DNA of 64,000 bases, from NCBI GenBank assembly GCA_011032825.1, contig JAADJZ010000014.1, positions 62,001 through 126,000 on the forward strand, read 5' to 3'. Positions 22,538 to 60,800 of the stretch are shown here, piece after piece. The DNA comes from Massariosphaeria phaeospora. Taxonomy: Eukaryota > Ascomycota > Dothideomycetes > Pleosporales. A program made the position numbers and the translations under genes. A model generated the notes under the pieces. It saw only the letters and a list, made by a program, of their open reading frames with translations, had not been told where the DNA came from and did not search any database. Numbering within the stretch: position 1 is the first letter of the stretch; every line of letters begins with the position of its first letter.

Positions 22538-24230
22538 ATGAACAATCACATCTACCGCCACGGCCTCATGCCCAAGAAGAGCAGTTGGTTGTACTTCCAC
22601 CAGGACAAGCCCGGTCCGCGCCCTCCATACGACCACCAAAATACTCTCCTCGCCGACGACCTGCGCGACGGCTGTTGCCACTTCCAACATGCACCCTACA
22701 TATCAAACCTCGAGACTCTTGACAAACAGCCGTCAAACCACGCCGGCTTCGAACTGTGGACTACAGTAGGCCATGTTGAAAGCGCCGCCCAGTTCTGCGC
22801 GTTCTGCCGCATCATCTGGCTGGGGCTCCAGAGATATCGACATCGTTGGGCGGCGGAATGTGCCGAGTACAACTTCCACGGTAGTTTGCAAGAGCTTGCG
22901 GATGGGTGTAGCAAGGATGAGTTCCAGGCTCGGGTAAGAGATGGATCCGCTTGGGCGGAGTATCGCGCGACGCACAAGGTGGATCTGGGCAAGATCATAT
23001 TTAAGCTGTCTTCAAAGGATGATGGGAAGCCGTTAGAGGGGCGGTTGCTCTTGGAACCGAGGGAGGACTCGACGTGGGCTCGACCACGACGGTTAATGGT
23101 GTTGGATTTCCATACTATTGAAGGTATGCCGTTTCCCTGGACATGCGTTGTATGGGGTTATAGGGTGCGGAGTAGTCGCCACCTTTGACTATCGTTTTTT
23201 GTCAACAGTGCTTGCGGCTTCAGTTCTGACTCGCGTAGGGAGACCTAGCGAATGGGCTGCCTTTCATCCAGCTCCGCAAGTACATATGGATGTTCTGAGT
23301 GATCGGGGCATTCAACAGCTCTCGGCATGGATAGAAGACTGCGTTGAAAACCACGCGTTATGCAACGCAGCTACCAAGAAAGTACAACCTACCAGATTAC
23401 TTCATGTCACAGTAGCCTCTGATCCAACAAGAGCATTAGTACGACTACACCGCACTGAACCACTTGAACACTACAAGTTCGTAGCTCCAAGCCACTGTTG
23501 GGCCCGGACCAAGCCCATCAAGACAACATCCGACAATCTGCAAGAGCGAATGCGCGGCATCGCTTAGGAGGAACTACCGCATGGTTTCCAGGACACCATC
23601 CAGCTCGCGCTACGCCTCAGCATCGAATACATCTGGATCGACTCGCTCTGCATCATCCAGGACTCCGAAGTCGACTGGCTCCACGAATCCCCCAAAATGG
23701 GCGCCATCTACGAAAGCGCGCACATCGTCTTCGCAGCGCATGGGCCCTGGCTCTACCTCACCAAAGACACCACCACATGCACGAAAGGCGCCGACGACGT
23801 GCACTGCGCCGCTGCTCCGGAAGCACCGCTTGGGCGTGTCGTGCCAGACGACGCGTATATCACGCTGCGCGGACATGTCGTGTGTATGCAGTTCGAAGAC
23901 GACGAGGGGTGTTACGAGTTCGGACGGCTGAAAATCGTGCCGCTGGGTAGCAGCGAGGCGGGCAGCGCTAAGGAGGGAGAAGATACGCACGTGGATAAGG
24001 AGAGGGATGCGTATGTGTGTATGGACGCCGTGGAGGATATGCTCGAGGCGCGGGAGCAGATCGTCACGTGTCTGGATATTATGCGGGATAGAACGGAGAT
24101 TGGATATGTTTATGCGTTGGTGCTTGTTGCTGTAGAGGATCGGGTGGGCGTTTATAGGCGGGTGGGGTTTTCGACGATGACGAGGGGGTTGTTTGGGGGG
24201 GCGGAGGTGGGGGATGTGACGATTGTTTGA
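22538..24230 (+). pseudogene. HET-domain (heterokaryon incompatibility) gene with one in-frame TAG
   Basis: Exon 1 is 22538-23123 (start Met-Asn-Asn-His). An 85-bp intron (23124-23208) precedes exon 2. The HET domain is clear: Ser-His-Cys-Trp, then Pro-Ile-Lys-Thr-Thr, Leu-Pro-His-Gly-Phe-Gln-Asp-Thr-Ile, and Tyr-Ile-Trp-Ile-Asp-Ser-Leu-Cys-Ile-Ile-Gln-Asp-Ser followed by Lys-Met-Gly-Ala-Ile-Tyr. The frame is interrupted once, by TAG at 23565-23567 between Gly-Ile-Ala and Glu-Glu-Leu-Pro, where Trp is usual in the family. Otherwise the frame is open to 24230. HET proteins trigger cell death after fusion of unlike hyphae. This copy would be cut in the middle of the domain unless the stop is read through. 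Confidence 0.78.
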
Positions 24231-28715: not shown

Positions 28716-29337
28716 TTGATGGATAGATGGAGGGAGAGTTGCTGGGTGATAGAGGGAGCGATATGGGCGATGGAAAGCCGTCGATGGAGTACCGCTAGCT
28801 GGATTCGGACGGTAGACGCTGTGCTATCCCATATCTACAACGCGCGACTCTCCCCATCATCATATTTCCTACATAATACCTATTCCATGTAAACCACTCA
28901 TAGTACATATTGAGCACACACAAAACCTAGTTCATAGTTCCGTTCTAACGCTTTTCCGCATCAGCGCTTGCTTCAGCAGCCATGATAAACGGAGTACGTA
29001 CCTAGCTTGCTGTACTGTAGAACCAAATAAATTAAAGTGACCTACTTTGCATACAAAGAGAATACTCCCTAGCAAAGAATGTTGTATAGACAAACACAAA
29101 CACACTCGTAGAGACGCAAGCAAACATTCTGCCCAAGTAGCAAACAAACTACCTAGAATAAAAATGCCCCGCCCACTAGCCCCCTCGCTTACCCCCCTCC
29201 TTCCCACACACACCCCCCAAATTCCCCCCTGTCACCTCTCTCTCGCCCCACCCCACTCCCTCCCTGCCCCTCCCCACTCCGCCCCCTCCCCCATTATAAT
29301 CCCCCCCAACCCGCAAACCTCCATCAAACAAACAAAC
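28716..29337. other. Intergenic before the tRNA gene
   Basis: About 620 bp. The last 170 bp are C-rich on the plus strand (runs of CCCC), directly upstream of the tRNA. I see no gene here. Confidence 0.5.
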
Positions 29338-29373
29338 GGCTTCATGGTCTAGTGGTATGATTCCTGCTTTGGG

Positions 29374-29391
29374 TATTCCAAACACACAATA
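29374..29391 (+). other. Canonical tRNA intron (after position 37)
   Basis: Eighteen nucleotides between anticodon-loop positions 37 and 38, the only standard place for a eukaryotic nuclear tRNA intron. CCAAA at 29378-29382 can pair with TTTGG of the anticodon loop, forming the helix recognised by the tRNA splicing endonuclease. Confidence 0.85.
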
Positions 29392-29399
29392 TGCAGGAG

Positions 29400-29455
29400 G
29401 TGAGTCATTATTCCCAACTATCTGCGATGGACCAATCAGCTAACGAGCCTTCCAG
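29400..29455 (+). other. Spliceosomal-type intron inside the tRNA variable loop
   Basis: Fifty-six nucleotides lie between the anticodon stem and the T-stem. They begin GTGAGT, contain CTAAC 11 nt before the end and finish CCAG, the same signals and length as mRNA introns elsewhere in the window. Removing exactly GT to AG leaves the standard AGGCC variable loop with C at position 48. A normal variable loop here has five bases, so this is an insertion. How it is removed, if at all, is unknown. Confidence 0.75.
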
Positions 29456-29510
29456 GCCCCGCGTTCGAATCGCGGTGGAGCCCGTTTACAAGTAGCCTTC
29501 GGGTGAACAA

Positions 29511-29517
29511 TTTTTTT
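29511..29517 (+). terminator. RNA polymerase III terminator of tRNA-Pro
   Basis: A run of seven T, 28 nt after the tRNA 3' end, on the coding strand. Confidence 0.75.
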
Positions 29518-33375: not shown

Positions 33376-34978
33376 ATGGCATCCATCTTCCAATCCTTCC
33401 CGCAGCTGCGGACGGCAGCACCACGACTCGCCCGCCGGCTCTTCGTGCCCCCGCCATGCCTCAACGCGCCCATCAGCTCGTCCGCCCGCGCGGCCCCCGC
33501 CCCTCGCCATGCACGCCCGAAGCCGTCCGTCCTGCACGCCGTGCGATATAAGTCCACGCAGCCATTGAAGAGCAGCGCGGCTACAGCTCCTTCCTCCGCC
33601 GGTGACCACGCCACACGCCCCGAGACGACAGTCAACACGGACGGCAGCAGCGGCTCGCCCAAAACCAGCTCCAAGAGCGTGGCGTACTGGCTGTTGGGCA
33701 GCGCAGCGAGCGTCTTCGGCATCGTCGTGTTCGGGGGGCTCACGCGGTTGACCGAGTCGGGGTATGCTCTCTCTATGCTATACTAGACAGCCCTTTCACA
33801 CAACGCTCCATCCTAACAACCCCAGCCTGAGCATCACCGAATGGCGCCCGGTCACCGGCTCGCTGCCGCCCCTGAGCGCCGCCGACTGGGAGCGCGAATT
33901 CGCCAAATACCGCTCGTCGCCCGAGTTCGCGCGCCTCAACGCGAACATGACGCTGCCGGAGTTCCAGCAGATCTACTGGATGGAGTGGACGCACCGGCTG
34001 TGGGGCCGCCTCATCGGCGTGACCTTCCTCGTGCCGACCGTCTACTTCATCGCGCGCCGCCGCGTCCCGGCTTCCATGGCCGCCAAGCTCGTCGGCATCT
34101 GCGCCATGATCGGCTTCCAGGGCGTCATCGGCTGGTGGATGGTCAAGAGCGGGCTGAAGGACGACCTGTTTGCGCCGGGCAGCCACCCCCGCGTCAGCCA
34201 GTACCGGCTGGCAACGCATCTGGGCGCCGCGTTCGTGGTGTACTGCTCGATGCTGTACACGGGGCTCTCGATCCTCAAGGAACACCGCATGCTCGCCGAC
34301 CCCGCCGCCGCCCTCGCGAAGCTCGCAACGCTCAACCACCCGGCGCTGCGCCTCTTCCGCGGCTCCGTCGTCGCCCTGTCACTACTCGTCTTCACGACCG
34401 CCATGTCGGGCGCCCTGGTCGCAGGCCTCGACGCCGGCCTCATCTACAACGAATTCCCGTACATGGGCCTCGGGCTAACGCCGCCCCGCAAGGAACTCTT
34501 CGACCCCTTCTACAGCCACGTCCCCGACCACTCGGACCTATGGTGGCGCAACATGCTGGAGAACCCGTCACTCGTGCAGCTCGACCACCGGCTTCTCGCA
34601 ACCACGACCTTCACCGCCGTCATGGCGCTCTTCGCCTACACGCGCTTCTCGCGCGGCGTGCGCGCCCAGCTGCCGCCCGATGCGCGCAAGGGCCTGCTGG
34701 GCATGGTGCATCTGGTCTGGATGCAGGCGGCGCTGGGTATCAGCACGCTCGTCTACATGGTGCCGACGTGGCTCGCGGCGGCGCACCAGGCCGGCGCGCT
34801 GGCGCTGCTCACGGGCGCTGTGGTGCTGTACAGCAGGATCTCCATGCCGCGGCGGAGCTTCGTTAATCAGGTGACGGCTATGCGACAGCTGCTGCCCCGG
34901 CATCTTTCGCCGGTTTCGCGGTCGCGGCTTGGCGCTGCGAAGGGGAGCCCCGCGAAGAAAAGTCCGGCGAAAGCGTAG
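33376..34978 (+). CDS. cox15: Haem A synthase Cox15
   Basis: Two exons (33376-33761, 33826-34978) give 512 residues. The intron (GTATGC donor, CTAAC, CCAG) joins Leu-Thr-Glu-Ser-Gly to Leu-Ser-Ile-Thr-Glu-Trp. The Arg/Ala-rich N-terminus is a typical mitochondrial targeting sequence. The body has eight or so hydrophobic helices with the family histidines in Glu-Trp-Thr-His-Arg-Leu-Trp-Gly-Arg, Ala-Thr-His-Leu-Gly, Leu-Asp-His-Arg-Leu-Leu and Ala-His-Gln. Other marks are Phe-Gly-Gly-Leu-Thr-Arg-Leu-Thr and Asn-Glu-Phe-Pro-Tyr-Met-Gly. Cox15 converts haem O to haem A in the inner mitochondrial membrane for cytochrome c oxidase. The length fits the family, and the short Lys-Ser-Pro-Ala tail is normal in fungi. 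Confidence 0.95.
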
Positions 34979-41991: not shown

Positions 41992-44613
41992 TCACATCCC
42001 CACATACATCCACTGCAATTGCTCCGCCTCAATACCCTCAACGGCCACTTCTCGCATTCTCCCAGGCAAGACATCGAATCCGTTATCACTCAACTTCACC
42101 CCCTGCTTCTCGCTGAACACAAACCCCTTCACCGGCCTGCGAGCAGACACAAAGGCTCTCGCCCCGTCGTCTGAATACTTGACTTCCACGCCTCGGTCTG
42201 GGAACGTGAGATACTTGATCGGATCCGGCCACGACGTATCGCTCGCCACTTCATTCCCGTCGATGCTTAGAGTTGCAGAGATGACGAAGGGGTCCACTTT
42301 CGACAGGTCGAACGGGGTTTTGTCGTCTTCGAGATGAGGGAGTTGGAACGTGTGGTTTTGTAGGACGTCGCTGGTGCCGTTCGGTGCGATTTTGACGGGT
42401 TTGACCAGGGGGGCGCTTAATTCCTTCCCGCTGCGTATAGATATGAACTTCACGATGACTTCGCCATGTAGCTCTTCACGCTTGTTACTCGCAACCCAGA
42501 CGTCAAACTCGACATCCTTCCAAATAGCCCTCATATCAATGTGGCTCGTATCGCGCTGCCACAACGCATCCGCCGGCCGCACCGTCCACGGCCGAAACTT
42601 ACGCTGCACAGAAACAGTAACAGGTTCCATCGCCCGCCTCATCACATAGTACGCCGGCTTCGGCACGAGATAGTAGTCCACGACCGCCCACGACATGGTC
42701 GGCCAGCAGTCATTCAACTGCCACACCAGCACGCCGCCACACTTCCTCTGCCCCTGGGCTCCCCACTGCCGCCGCCACGCCTGATACGCCCAGCCCAGCG
42801 CATCCGCCTGCATGACCTGCGTCAAGTGCGCAAACCCCGGTAAGTCGTAGCGGAGCGTGAAGTTTTCCGCGACATAGGACACCAGGCGGCGCTCGTGGCC
42901 GATGGCTTTGTTGCGGAAGTCCATGGCCATGGAGCCCGGGATGCGGTCGTCGGCGCGCGTGATGCACTGCTCGAGCGTCTCGGTGTGTGGGTACGCTTCC
43001 ATGCCGAACTCGGAGACGAAGCGGCCGCCTAGGTCGGGGAGTTTCTGGTAGGGCTCCATGGTGCCGTGCCAGACGTTCCATTGGTGGATGTCGCCGACGG
43101 TGGGGTCGACTTTGAGGGTCGTGGATGTGCCGTTGCCAAAGGGGGAAGATGGGTGGTACGGCACGCCTTTTGTTTCCTCGTTCACGATCTTCGGGAGCAG
43201 GTATTCGTAGATGTAGCGCGCGGGGAAATCCGTCTTGAGCCACGACTGCGGGTCTTTGTCTTGCTCGAAACGGTACTCGAGGCCGTAGCGCTCGACAATC
43301 TGGTAGTCTTCGTTGTTGCCGGCCCAGATGACGACGCTGGGGTGGTCGCGCAGGCGGCGGACGTTCTGGCGCGCTTCGGTCTCGATGGAGACGAGATAGG
43401 ATTGGTGAGCGGGATGGTTTGCGCACGCGAACATGAAGTCTTGCCATATGAGCACGCCGAACTCGTCGGCGGCGGCGTAGAACGCGTCGGGCTCGTAGAT
43501 GCCGCCGCCCCAGACGCGCACCATGGTTTGGTTGCCTTCGGCCGCGAGTTTCATCCAGTCGCGGTACTTTTCTGCGGTCAGCTGCGTGAGGAACGAGTCG
43601 GCGGGGATCCAGCAGGATCCTCCGGAGAAGATGTCGACGTTGTTGATGCGGAAGTAGAACGATGTGCCGTTTGCGTCGGGCTCTTGGATGAGTTCGACTT
43701 TCCGGAAACCTGTCGTTATGTTCTTTTCGTCAAGAGGTGTTCCGTCTGTGGTTTCCAGATAGACTCTTGTCTGATAAAGGGATTGCGAGCCGTAGCCTCG
43801 GGGCCACCAGAGGTCCACGTCCAGTTCGAAGTCCATAGTGAGAACGCCATCTTTTAATACGTCCTGGACTTCGTCCCAGTACTCTGTTTTCCCAATAGTA
43901 AACCCGAGAAGCAGTTGGTCAGATCCCCACCCTTCCACCCGAACATGAAGCTTCCCCTTAGCTATCTTCAGATCATCGCTAAGCTCGTACTCGATAGTGA
44001 CATCCGCTAGACGCACCGTATACGTCTCCAGACGGACCGGCTTCCAAGGCCCGCACGTGATGAGCAGAGGTCCCCAGTCCCATCCCCAATGATATTGAGC
44101 TTTTCGCACCGGACCCCGCGAGATCTCCGTTTGATGTACAATGAATCGATGCTCCTTGTGCTCCTTGACTAATTCTAGCCCCTTTTGACGAGCCGAATCG
44201 AAGACTATCTCTAGCGCGTTTTTCTGACTTGGGTCCACTTGCAACAAGGTGGTGACATCGACTCGGTGTGCAACGAACATGTTATCGGCTTCTAAGATGA
44301 GCTCCCCGTTTAGGTAGACCGAAGCGTATGTGTCCAATCCTTCGAATACTAACATCGTGTTCATGTTTTCGCCTCGGATAGCCGCGGGAGTCTCGAACTC
44401 GTGTGAATATGTCCATGTCTCGTCGGCTACCCAGCGGACTGAGAGCTCGTTCATATTCTGGAACGGGTCGGCAATCTTGCCATTGAGTAGAAGATCGCGA
44501 TAGATCTCGGTAGGGACATCGTTGGCCGGAAGAAGTAGAGCTGTAGAAGAGCGGCCGCCTTGTTTGAAGCGCCAGCCCTCCTGAAGGGTGACCGACGTAA
44601 TCGAGGATGCCAT
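41992..44613 (-). CDS. Beta-mannosidase, glycoside hydrolase family 2
   Basis: A single exon of 873 residues without a signal peptide, so it is likely intracellular. The GH2 layout is complete: an N-terminal sugar-binding region with Trp-Gly-Trp-Asp-Trp-Gly-Pro at 176-182, an immunoglobulin-like middle, and a TIM barrel. Glu435, in Trp-Ala-Gly-Asn-Asn-Glu, is the expected acid/base. Glu535, in Phe-Val-Ser-Glu-Phe-Gly-Met-Glu, is the expected nucleophile. Trp-Gly-Gly-Gly-Ile-Tyr-Glu at 368-374 is also typical of family members. It releases mannose from the non-reducing end of beta-1,4-manno-oligosaccharides, the last step of mannan breakdown. The length fits the intracellular fungal MndB type. 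It is divergent from a sugar carrier, with 424 bp between the starts. Confidence 0.93.
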   Translation of the reverse strand: MASSITSVTLQEGWRFKQGGRSSTALLLPANDVPTEIYRDLLLNGKIADPFQNMNELSVRWVADETWTYSHEFETPAAIRGENMNTMLVFEGLDTYASVYLNGELILEADNMFVAHRVDVTTLLQVDPSQKNALEIVFDSARQKGLELVKEHKEHRFIVHQTEISRGPVRKAQYHWGWDWGPLLITCGPWKPVRLETYTVRLADVTIEYELSDDLKIAKGKLHVRVEGWGSDQLLLGFTIGKTEYWDEVQDVLKDGVLTMDFELDVDLWWPRGYGSQSLYQTRVYLETTDGTPLDEKNITTGFRKVELIQEPDANGTSFYFRINNVDIFSGGSCWIPADSFLTQLTAEKYRDWMKLAAEGNQTMVRVWGGGIYEPDAFYAAADEFGVLIWQDFMFACANHPAHQSYLVSIETEARQNVRRLRDHPSVVIWAGNNEDYQIVERYGLEYRFEQDKDPQSWLKTDFPARYIYEYLLPKIVNEETKGVPYHPSSPFGNGTSTTLKVDPTVGDIHQWNVWHGTMEPYQKLPDLGGRFVSEFGMEAYPHTETLEQCITRADDRIPGSMAMDFRNKAIGHERRLVSYVAENFTLRYDLPGFAHLTQVMQADALGWAYQAWRRQWGAQGQRKCGGVLVWQLNDCWPTMSWAVVDYYLVPKPAYYVMRRAMEPVTVSVQRKFRPWTVRPADALWQRDTSHIDMRAIWKDVEFDVWVASNKREELHGEVIVKFISIRSGKELSAPLVKPVKIAPNGTSDVLQNHTFQLPHLEDDKTPFDLSKVDPFVISATLSIDGNEVASDTSWPDPIKYLTFPDRGVEVKYSDDGARAFVSARRPVKGFVFSEKQGVKLSDNGFDVLPGRMREVAVEGIEAEQLQWMYVGM

Positions 44614-45037
44614 GGTGTGTTCTTGTTACAACCAATCTGGTGCTGGATTTCGAGGTTGAAGTATCACACACGGAAGACCGCAAAAGGGAATCCGGAACTG
44701 AGTATGTCCAGCAATGGTGTGAATGGCTGGCGCGTGGTTCGGTAGAGGTGCCGAAAAGATCGACACATGCCCACATGCGGGGTTCCAACGCTCGTCTTCT
44801 TGTGGTAACGATCAACGCCTTAGACAACAACCAACACCTCTTATCGGGTAACTGATATCCGAGCACCCCTGGCTATTGACGAGTCAGCGATAAGATGCGA
44901 CGTGACTTTACTATAAGAGCGCTGGAACCGGATACCTGGGTTGCACAATGCGGGGCTTGTCTTGTCAGGCTGCACATTTCCACACACGCCACCCCGCAAC
45001 TCCTTCTTCTTCACATTCATCATAACCGGCTGCGAAA
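44614..45037. promoter_or_regulatory. Bidirectional promoter with three CreA-type motifs
   Basis: 424 bp between the beta-mannosidase start and the second MFS start. GCGGGG occurs at 44777-44782 and 44950-44955, and inverted at 44992-44997. All three fit SYGGRG, the binding consensus of the carbon catabolite repressor CreA of filamentous ascomycetes. Such motifs also occur by chance, so binding is an inference. Confidence 0.45.
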
Positions 45038-57853: not shown

Positions 57854-60800
57854 ATGGACTCGCAAATATCCAATGTCGAGATTGTGAACGTCACCAGACC
57901 TCAATCGAAAGCTCCTAGTATGGCGCCCGAGGCTCCTCCTACTCGCCCACGGGTTCGAGCAAAGAAGCAGCCACCGCAGAAGGGCATCGACGAGTTTTGG
58001 TACAATTTCACCACTAAGCATCCAGGCAAGATCTTTACGATTTTGCCGGACAACCTGTTAGCTGGCACTTTCCCCTCTAGCTAGCTGGTCTAATGATTTC
58101 AATTAGATACGCAAAGCGAGCGGCCGCACATGCACCCAAAGGCTCTATCCCCGGGCAAAATGCCGTCGCATCTTATGAAGAGGCGGTCGACGCATGCAAC
58201 AAGAAGATCGAGAAGATCGTGAAGGAGTGCAGACGGTTAAACCAGAAATACCGGGACCCCCACTTCGACATCGAGTCGGATTTCAAGCGATCGCAAACGT
58301 TTCCCGAAATACCACCCGATTGCCTGACAGCGATGAACGAGGATACGACCACGTTCCAGCCCATGTCGGTCAAGAGAATTGAGGTAACGCGCCTCGTTCC
58401 GTCGCTGTGTCACGCGCCACCATGCTAACGAAAAACCTTGCTCTTCATAGGATATCTTTGACAAGCCCCAATTTTTTGTGGATGGAGCCACCGCCAACGA
58501 CGTGCGGCAAGGCAACGATGGCGACTGCTGGTTCATGGCAGCGCTGGCAACGATAAGCAATAAGGAAGAGCTCATACAGAAAGTCTGTATCGCGCGAGAT
58601 GAGCAGGTTGGGGTCTATGGATTTGTGTTCCACAGAGGTAGGTCTTCGGTGCATATGCGATCTAGGAGCGACGCTAATATGGTTTAGACGGCGAGTGGAT
58701 CTCGGAAGTCATCGACGACAAGCTATACCTGATCAAAGAAGATTTTGATGACGCCACCTTAGGACGCCATCAATGGCTGGAACTACAGAACCGGAAAAGT
58801 CCGGATGACGAATACCGCAAGGTAATGCAGACCGGTTCGCGGGCATTGTACTTTGCTCAATGTAGCGATGCCAACGAGACTTGGCTACCGCTCCTTGAGA
58901 AGGCCTATGCAAAGGCCCATGGCGACTACTCGTCCATCGATGGGGGATTTGTAGGCGAGGGCATTGAAGATCTAACTGGTGGAGTCACTTCCGAAATCTT
59001 TGCTACGGATATCCTCGACAAAGAAAAATTCTGGCGTGAAGAACTCCTTCGGGTGAACTCTGAGTTTCTCTTCGGTGCAGGACAAATGGGTGGCATATAT
59101 GGAGAACGCAGCGGCATCCAAGAGAAGCATGCTTATTCTATCATGGAGGCTCGGGAGATTGACGGTGAACGCCTGCTAAAACTCAGAAACCCTTGGGGCA
59201 GGACAGAGTGGACTGGTACGTTCTGGGAAATTCATCAAACATTGCGAGAGTTTCGTCATGCTAACATTCCTCAGGAAAATGGTCGGATGGCAGTGAAGAG
59301 TGGACGCCGCAATGGATGCAAAAGCTCGATCACAAATTCGGCGATGACGGCATGTTCTGGATCTCATATTCAGACCTCCTTAAGCACTACCAGCATTTCG
59401 ACAGAACTAGGCTTTTCGGCCCGGAGTGGACCATTTCTCAGCAATGGACGAGTGTCAACGTCCCTTGGTCAGTCGATTACTTGAACACCAAGTTCAAGAT
59501 TCACCTCTCCAAGCCTAGCCCGGTGGTCATAGTACTGAATCAGCTGGACGACCGCTATTTTCAAGGTCTTGAGGGCCAGTACGAGTTCAACCTTCAGTTC
59601 AGACTCCACAAGGACGACGAGGATGATTACATCGTGCGCAGCAACGGCACCTACTACATGAAACGCTCTGTTTCTACGGAACTTGACCTTGAAGCTGGTA
59701 ACTACACAGTGCTTCTCAAGATTAAGGCCACTCGGTTCCCTAATCCAACACCCGAAGAGGTCATTCGCGCTACCTGCGTGAAGCGACGGGAGAAGCTACT
59801 CTCTATCGGATTGTCATATGATCTCGCTCATGCCAAGGGACAATTCCGAGCACAAGCGAAAGAGAAAGCCCGCCAGGAACAGGAACGAAATATCGAGCGG
59901 AAGAAAGCAGAGCTGAAGCGCTCGCACGAACAGCGGAAAAAGAGGCGTACGAAAGAAAAGCTTCGCGAGGAGAAGAAAGCCGCAAAGCATGCCAATAACA
60001 AGTCCAAGAACAGCGAACTGCGAGAGGTTGAGATAACACTCCAAGGCCTTGCTGGACTTGGAATTGACGTTGAAGAGAACACTCGTCTACATGGCGATGA
60101 TGCCAAGCCCATGCATGCTAATGTGGCACGCCATCAAAGAGCCTCAAGCACAAGTGCGATTGATCCTCCGGAGAGGTCCTCGAGTCCTAACGGTGGTTTC
60201 GGCGGCAGGTCAGGCTACAACAAGGGTCGAGATGGGTACTTGCTCCCACTCATTTCATGCCTTTACCAGTTACTAAGACTATTCTAGGTACAATCGAGGC
60301 TCAAGCATGGCAGAAGCGCTTGCTCTTCAAGGGAACGTTTCCCACCCACAGGTTTCATCTAGTGGATATGGCGGACGCGGAGGATACCAAGCCGGTAGAG
60401 ATGGGTGAGTCCTCCACTCTATGAAGACATCACCTGGGTGTCTGAGCAACAGAACGAGAACACTGAAGAATGACCACTGACAACATCTAGTTACAATGAC
60501 TCAGGGCGCGATGGATACAATGCCTCAGGACGCGACGGGTACAATATCATCAGCGACTCGCCAATCCCAACTCCACAGATTGATGAGTTCCGGCCGGGAA
60601 CCCCAGCCCAGCGTCCATATAGCCCGCGACTCGATCGAAGGCCTACAGCGCCCTCGCCCACGCCTTCGCGCCGGGCAACCTTATCGCCACATCCTGGCAA
60701 CCCACCACGTATCCAAGTGAACAGGGGCAGAGATACGAGCAGATGTTCTCACCGCGCTCGACGCGGTGTTTATGCTGGATCCGATTCAGAGTCATCCTGG

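Follow-up and report, generated by a model that had tools for sequence, protein, structure and literature searches.

Can a spliceosomal intron sit inside a nuclear tRNA gene, and is the tRNA then still made? This question is raised by a tRNA-Pro(UGG) gene whose variable loop is interrupted by 56 nucleotides that begin and end like an mRNA intron. The gene lies in the window, the whole 64-kb stretch of DNA analysed here, which corresponds to positions 62001-126000 of contig C6 in a fungal genome of 42.08 Mb and 51 contigs. The host probably belongs to the Pleosporales, the order of Corynespora cassiicola, whose protein is the best outside match of a beta-mannosidase gene in the window, and of most other named top matches. 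The initial annotation proposed an mRNA-type intron in the variable loop of a tRNA gene of RNA polymerase III (Pol III), which would make the tRNA either spliced or silent. The sequence evidence supports the first part of this proposal; of the two outcomes left open by the second, it favours splicing over silence, since no normal Pro-UGG gene was found and the three Gly-GCC genes found are interrupted as well.

The gene spans 29338-29483 and contains no run of T longer than three (Table 1). Its A and B boxes were assigned from their places in the cloverleaf and are presumed on that basis. All the signals described at the outset are present: the insertion starts with GTGAGT, carries CTAAC followed by 11 nt and ends in CCAG, giving the arrangement AG/GTGAGT...CTAAC...CCAG/G (slashes mark the exon borders). 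The insertion point can be slid by a few bases because AG/G is present at both ends, and a single register yields GT...AG. With the 56 nt retained and introns allowed, ARAGORN takes the gene for a tRNA-Val whose intron measures 59 nt, which is a misreading. Deletion of 29400-29455 changes the call to tRNA-Pro(tgg), now with an intron of 18 nt in the normal place, and the acceptor (7/7), anticodon (5/5) and T stems (5/5) are fully paired with G-U allowed. The variable loop of this spliced form has 5 nt, in agreement with the normal tRNA-Pro(UGG) described in the initial annotation.

Table 1. Features of the tRNA-Pro(UGG) locus, and the insertions outside 37/38 in the ten interrupted tRNA genes (positions refer to the window unless a contig is named)
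Feature	Position	Strand	Length	Place	Basis
TATAA box	29295..29299	+		about 40 bp upstream of tRNA-Pro(UGG)	sequence
tRNA-Pro(UGG) part 1, including 37/38 intron	29338..29399	+		tRNA positions 1-45	ARAGORN on spliced form; stem count
A box (presumed)	29345..29355	+		tRNA positions 8-19	place in cloverleaf
Anticodon TGG	29370..29372	+			ARAGORN
Usual tRNA intron	29374..29391 (alternative reading 29375-29392)	+	18 nt	37/38	ARAGORN
Putative mRNA-type intron	29400..29455	+	56 nt	45/46	sequence, ARAGORN, genome comparison
5' splice site GTGAGT (AG/GTGAGT)	29400..29405	+			sequence
Branch-site motif CTAAC, probable branch A 29443	29440..29444	+			sequence
3' splice site CAG	29453..29455	+			sequence
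tRNA-Pro(UGG) part 2	29456..29483	+		tRNA positions 46-73	ARAGORN; stem count
B box (presumed), uninterrupted	29462..29472	+		tRNA positions 52-62	place in cloverleaf
T7 run, probable Pol III terminator	29511..29517	+			sequence
Insertion, Pro-UGG (window gene)			56 nt	45/46	
Insertion, Ile-AAU (L028)			47 nt	45/46	
Insertion, Ser-UGA (L056)			56 nt	53/54	
Insertion, Leu-CAA (L108)			52 nt	53/54	
Insertion, Glu-CUC (L115)			53 nt	52/53	
Insertion, Ala-AGC (L035)			50 nt	58/59	
Insertions, Gly-GCC (L055, L093, L094)			49, 51, 48 nt	24/25	
Insertion, Gly-CCC (L135)	C11, around 125150	-	48 nt	58/59 (T loop)	

A default tRNA finder called no tRNA in the 64-kb window, and no Rfam family reached its gathering score there. 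The catalytic core of group I and group II introns takes up a hundred bases or so at the least. They were rejected as an explanation for insertions of 47-56 nt, no such family having been found by Rfam in the window. A search for a trailer hairpin 3' of the Pro-UGG gene gave no signal (z 0.06).

Judged from its sequence, the insertion is probably a spliceosomal intron of the U2 type, and the nuclear tRNA gene that carries it probably works. Pol III would transcribe the gene from the upstream TATA box together with the internal boxes, and the precursors of this and the other interrupted genes would carry one or two introns. The spliceosome would then excise the 56-nt intron at AG/GTGAGT...CTAAC...CAG/G via a lariat, while the tRNA splicing endonuclease would take out the separate 18-nt intron at 37/38. 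No fewer than eight further tRNA genes may follow the same route, on which the fungus would depend for tRNA-Gly(GCC). We infer the spliceosome as the agent, the order of these steps and the use of the tRNA product from the features described below.

The interruption is not confined to one gene. In the same genome, insertions outside 37/38 were found in 10 of the 67 tRNA genes read, an incomplete sample. The ten insertions occupy five sites (24/25, 45/46, 52/53, 53/54 and 58/59, numbered by hand on the cloverleaf), and none of them lies at the canonical position 37/38; a usual 37/38 intron is additionally present in eight of the ten genes. The unspliced forms are called wrongly or missed by ARAGORN in all ten cases (one Gly-GCC gene was called as Gly with anticodon CCC). 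When the exons are joined at GT-AG, or at GA-AG in the Gly-CCC gene, ARAGORN recognises all ten as tRNAs, each with the identity expected. Moreover, each spliced form pairs 12/12 in the acceptor and T stems (G-U allowed), though five of the introns split the T arm. In Ser-UGA the anticodon TGA was given by ARAGORN, and the anticodon stem TTAGA/TCTAA was read by hand.

The sample of 67 genes is neither complete nor random. A first genome search contributed 47 genes (49 rows, two L054 rows being dropped as doubtful tRNA-like elements), and a Pro D-arm pattern contributed five (seven places, L036 and L050 being one gene and L038 no tRNA). Nine came from 20 regions chosen among the matches listed of 128 overlapping ones (control 12), 11 tRNA-less regions being dropped. 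Five came from 13 chosen regions (eight dropped) of a pattern whose 75 matches hardly exceeded the control (70), and one from the pattern for an intron-free Gly-GCC gene. L107, called by ARAGORN with a 165-nt intron, was excluded from the count. The remaining 57 genes are ARAGORN calls each. By a lenient script, all 57 have extra bases only after the anticodon loop and at least 4/5 pairs in the anticodon stem (L019 has one mismatch there). The anticodon or intron reading of ARAGORN was wrong in some of them, e.g. L019, L031, L040, L051-L053 and L117. The two elements at L054 (C11:305000-305556) lie 186 bases apart on the same strand and have the odd anticodons TTA and TCA according to ARAGORN.

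Most of the insertions share a set of intron-like signals. A GT start, CTRAC and a YAG end occur together in 9/10; CTRAC is followed by 9-11 nt to the end in 9/10, and YAG is present in all. GTRNGT begins six of the ten, Pro-UGG included (GTGAGT three times, in Pro-UGG, Ile-AAU and Ser-UGA; GTACGT twice; GTAAGT once). The exception is the Gly-CCC insertion, which has a GAACGT start, a CTAAT branch motif and a CAG end and is possibly a decaying or unusual intron. The 5' sites of the Gly-GCC introns (GTCCGT, GTCCGA and GTTCGT; GTYCGW) match CAG/GTAAGT at only 4-5 of nine positions, and their hexamers were not enriched in a genome sample by an unsupervised motif count. Between Gly-GCC introns 1 and 2, 37 of 52 alignment columns agree, with GTCCG, ACTAACAA and TTCTAG kept.

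A chance match of any one insertion to the intron pattern is unlikely. Among 2,000,000 random stretches of 46-57 nt from the fungus' own genome, each read in three registers, 23,700 had GT...AG, 311 also had CTRAC near the end and 39 in addition started with GTRNGT. To compare, a scan by coding score over about 205 kb of this genome, in which both CTRAC and YAG had to be present, gave 11 candidate mRNA introns vs 1 in the reversed sequence. These are 46-69 nt long (median 51), a range that includes the lengths of all tRNA insertions (47-56 nt), and GTRNGT starts 4/11. A version with a stricter threshold left one candidate; when CTRAC was no longer demanded, 54 clusters came out, 7 of them with CTRAC, and most of the clusters are probably noise. 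The unsupervised count of mRNA-intron motifs was discarded as too noisy (674 matches observed, vs 919 after reversal and 828 after shuffling of the sequence); in it, GTAAGT was seen 9 times vs 2 reversed and 3.0 shuffled, and GTGAGT 9 times vs 3 and 3.9.

The upstream signals are those of other tRNA genes. TATAW lies at -65 to -20 in all ten interrupted genes, in 47 of the 57 others and at 5.9% of random places in the window. Each of the ten thus combines a complete cloverleaf after splicing with a TATA box as found in other tRNA genes. No T run inside the ten genes is longer than four; TTTT occurs within the Ser-UGA and Gly-CCC introns and is possibly a weak Pol III stop. The B box is divided by the intron in five genes (Glu, Ser, Leu, Ala and Gly-CCC), which may therefore rely on their TATA box.

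The comparison with paralogues helps to place the intron borders. The Ile-AAU paralogue L020 has no 45/46 insertion and, provided that the cut for its 37/38 intron falls after position 37, is by reading identical in its mature form; the Glu-CUC paralogue L092 also has no insertion and differs from L115 only inside the 37/38 intron. Since these insertion-free paralogues share the mature sequence, the boundaries of the Ile-AAU and Glu-CUC introns are fixed. The interrupted Ala-AGC gene differs from its paralogue at three places. Two of them form a compensatory T-stem change from A-T to G-C, in a pair whose halves flank the intron on either side, and the third turns an acceptor pair from T-A to T-G. 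The three Gly-GCC genes found have mature sequences that are the same by reading (37/37 bases of the 3' part in one comparison).

It could be argued that the tRNA splicing endonuclease, acting at unusual positions, excises the insertions and that GT, CTAAC and AG are incidental. According to the consulted part of PMC4090602, archaeal tRNA genes can be interrupted in the D, variable and T regions, with 45/46 and 53/54 among the sites, and other non-canonical tRNA introns are known from Cyanidioschyzon merolae and the Guillardia theta nucleomorph (consulted parts of PMC4090602 and PMC3978253). The insertions found here resemble these introns in their D-, variable- and T-region sites. They differ in that those introns are cut at a bulge-helix-bulge or by an unknown way, with no mRNA splice signals described for them in the parts of these sources consulted. 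The weakness of the Gly-GCC 5' sites as mRNA sites would also suit the endonuclease and, being common to three paralogues, possibly points to another removal route for Gly. In a scan of eight of the ten introns for bulge-helix-bulge motifs, the scores were no better than those of shuffled introns (20-61% of the shuffled versions as good); five 37/38 introns of this genome scored no higher, so that the scan is weak evidence at most. Cutting by this enzyme would give no reason for a grammar of 5' site, branch and 3' site that recurs in unrelated introns at five sites, and we consider this explanation improbable.

A second possibility is that the interrupted genes are silent pseudogenes, with intact copies elsewhere doing the work. 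As far as the consulted part of PMC4090602 goes, 37/38 is considered the place of most nuclear tRNA introns, and a protein endonuclease the enzyme that cuts them. Arm insertions (D or T) in eukaryotic tRNA genes mostly affect a single copy among many synonymous ones and are commonly regarded as signs of a pseudogene. An insertion-free gene of the same anticodon indeed exists for six of the eight anticodons concerned, namely Ile-AAU, Ser-UGA, Glu-CUC, Leu-CAA (L053, its anticodon read by hand), Ala-AGC and Gly-CCC, so that need can be argued for Pro-UGG and Gly-GCC only. For these two, no intact copy appeared within the searches made. Moreover, the exons are undecayed, all ten genes have their TATA boxes and the intron grammar of 9/10 insertions is unlike random damage. 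We therefore find silence quite improbable for the set, while the Gly-CCC gene may be a pseudogene.

The initial annotation asked for other intact tRNA-Pro(UGG) genes, and none was found with the pattern used. A 19-base D-arm pattern with at most two mismatches hit seven places in the genome (one Pro-UGG, two Pro-AGG, one Pro-CGG, two Ala-AGC and one that is no tRNA), and the window gene, with its exons intact, is the sole Pro-UGG gene found by this search. This alone is no proof of need, because tRNA-Pro(IGG) could in principle read CCA. For Gly-GCC, three genes were found, and all three carry the 24/25 intron. Of 11 places that fitted a pattern for a Gly-GCC gene lacking this intron, a number equalled by the control, nine were read and none proved to be such a gene, though the Gly-CCC gene L135 is among them. 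The position of the tenth identifies it as the known Gly-UCC gene L002, and the eleventh was assessed from its matched letters only. The codons GGC and GGU require the anticodon GCC, and therefore the 24/25 intron must be removed if no further Gly-GCC gene exists. As tRNA-Gly(GCC) is indispensable, the introns are very probably removed, and the signals of the set point to the spliceosome. One Gly-GCC junction was also searched for in prokaryote and viral collections, where no copy was found.

Genes for Phe, Trp and Arg-UCU tRNAs were not located. A joined DNA query matched only the Gly-GCC and Pro-UGG loci; it also missed the known Pro-AGG genes and is thus insensitive to short matches. A further D-arm pattern gave 14 places vs 5 in the control, two of them the Lys genes L004 and L016 by position and three, which were read, no tRNA. 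Another pattern gave three matches vs two in the control, and a stricter one, too strict to count as evidence, gave none.

A third explanation holds that the loci are made within Pol II transcripts, the tRNA genes overlapping with longer, mRNA-like RNAs to which the introns belong. The spliceosome normally acts on Pol II transcripts, but no result obtained here speaks for such RNAs. Against this, the splice sites restore a tRNA in 10/10 and the TATA boxes are placed as in other tRNA genes, which renders this origin very unlikely. An assembly or sequencing artefact is scarcely credible, as the one assembly used shows ten interrupted genes on eight contigs with differing intron sequences and exact boundaries.

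Splicing of a Pol III precursor by the spliceosome, the reading we prefer, has a precedent in U6. Outside fission yeast, mRNA-type introns also occur in the U6 genes of some other fungi. The U6 snRNA gene of fission yeast contains an mRNA-type intron that is thought to stem from reverse splicing (consulted part of PMC10484740). The introns described here share with it the spliceosomal type and the short Pol III RNA gene as host, but the hosts are tRNA genes, 10 of 67 read, and five positions are used. Two loci of this fungus, L095 and L109, which we recognised by eye and take to be U6 genes, contain no intron and are closely followed by a B box. Compared with canonical 37/38 introns, which also interrupt nuclear tRNA genes, the insertions differ in position, length, GT-AG ends and branch motif. 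In the open-licence literature searched, which was covered mostly by titles and abstract openings, we met with no nuclear tRNA gene reported to hold an mRNA-type intron, and the stem 'spliceosom' is absent from the main text of PMC4090602. Within this coverage, mRNA-type introns of Pol III genes are known from U6, and tRNA genes appear without report as hosts.

Introner-like elements of Dothideomycetes are a case of recent spliceosomal intron gain, and the initial annotation had linked the insertion to their multiplication. Introners are named in the part of PMC8476143 consulted. The tRNA introns would likewise represent spliceosomal intron gain in the same fungal class, but the link was not supported. 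Seven tRNA introns, searched as one query, matched only their own loci and one Gly-GCC paralogue; no near-identical copies and no multi-copy family emerged for these seven, so that an introner origin was rejected. Another origin may be guessed from the interrupted Ile-AAU (L028) and Ala-AGC (L035) genes, which lack a 37/38 intron while their paralogues L020 and L050 retain one. Because of this lack, we propose that an mRNA-type intron may have entered an already spliced tRNA by reverse splicing and was then copied into DNA.

The mRNA-splicing machinery is probably needed for some tRNAs of this fungus. Going further, we think it likely, with rather less assurance than for the Pro-UGG intron itself, that a class of spliceosome-dependent nuclear tRNAs exists. 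The decoding of Gly GGC/GGU and by tRNA-Pro(UGG), and hence general protein synthesis, would then rely on mRNA-type splicing of Pol III precursors, and mature tRNAs would be targets of intron gain, perhaps by reverse splicing. If this is true, the spliceosome can serve tRNA synthesis and translation is tied to splicing capacity. tRNA gene finders would miss such genes, since ARAGORN was wrong or silent on the ten unspliced forms. Ideas on intron origin could also be tested on the interrupted genes, which would form a natural collection of intron gains; some of them have a paralogue with an empty site in this genome.

Upstream of the tRNA promoter, at 29245-29286 of the window, a 21-bp C-rich unit occurs in two tandem copies that are 81% alike. 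The neighbouring genes in the window encode a HET-domain protein (23568-24227), a COX15-like protein (33752-34975), a GH2 beta-mannosidase (41992-44625) and a calpain-like protease (58678-60284). The best outside match of the beta-mannosidase is from Corynespora cassiicola, with 69% identity.
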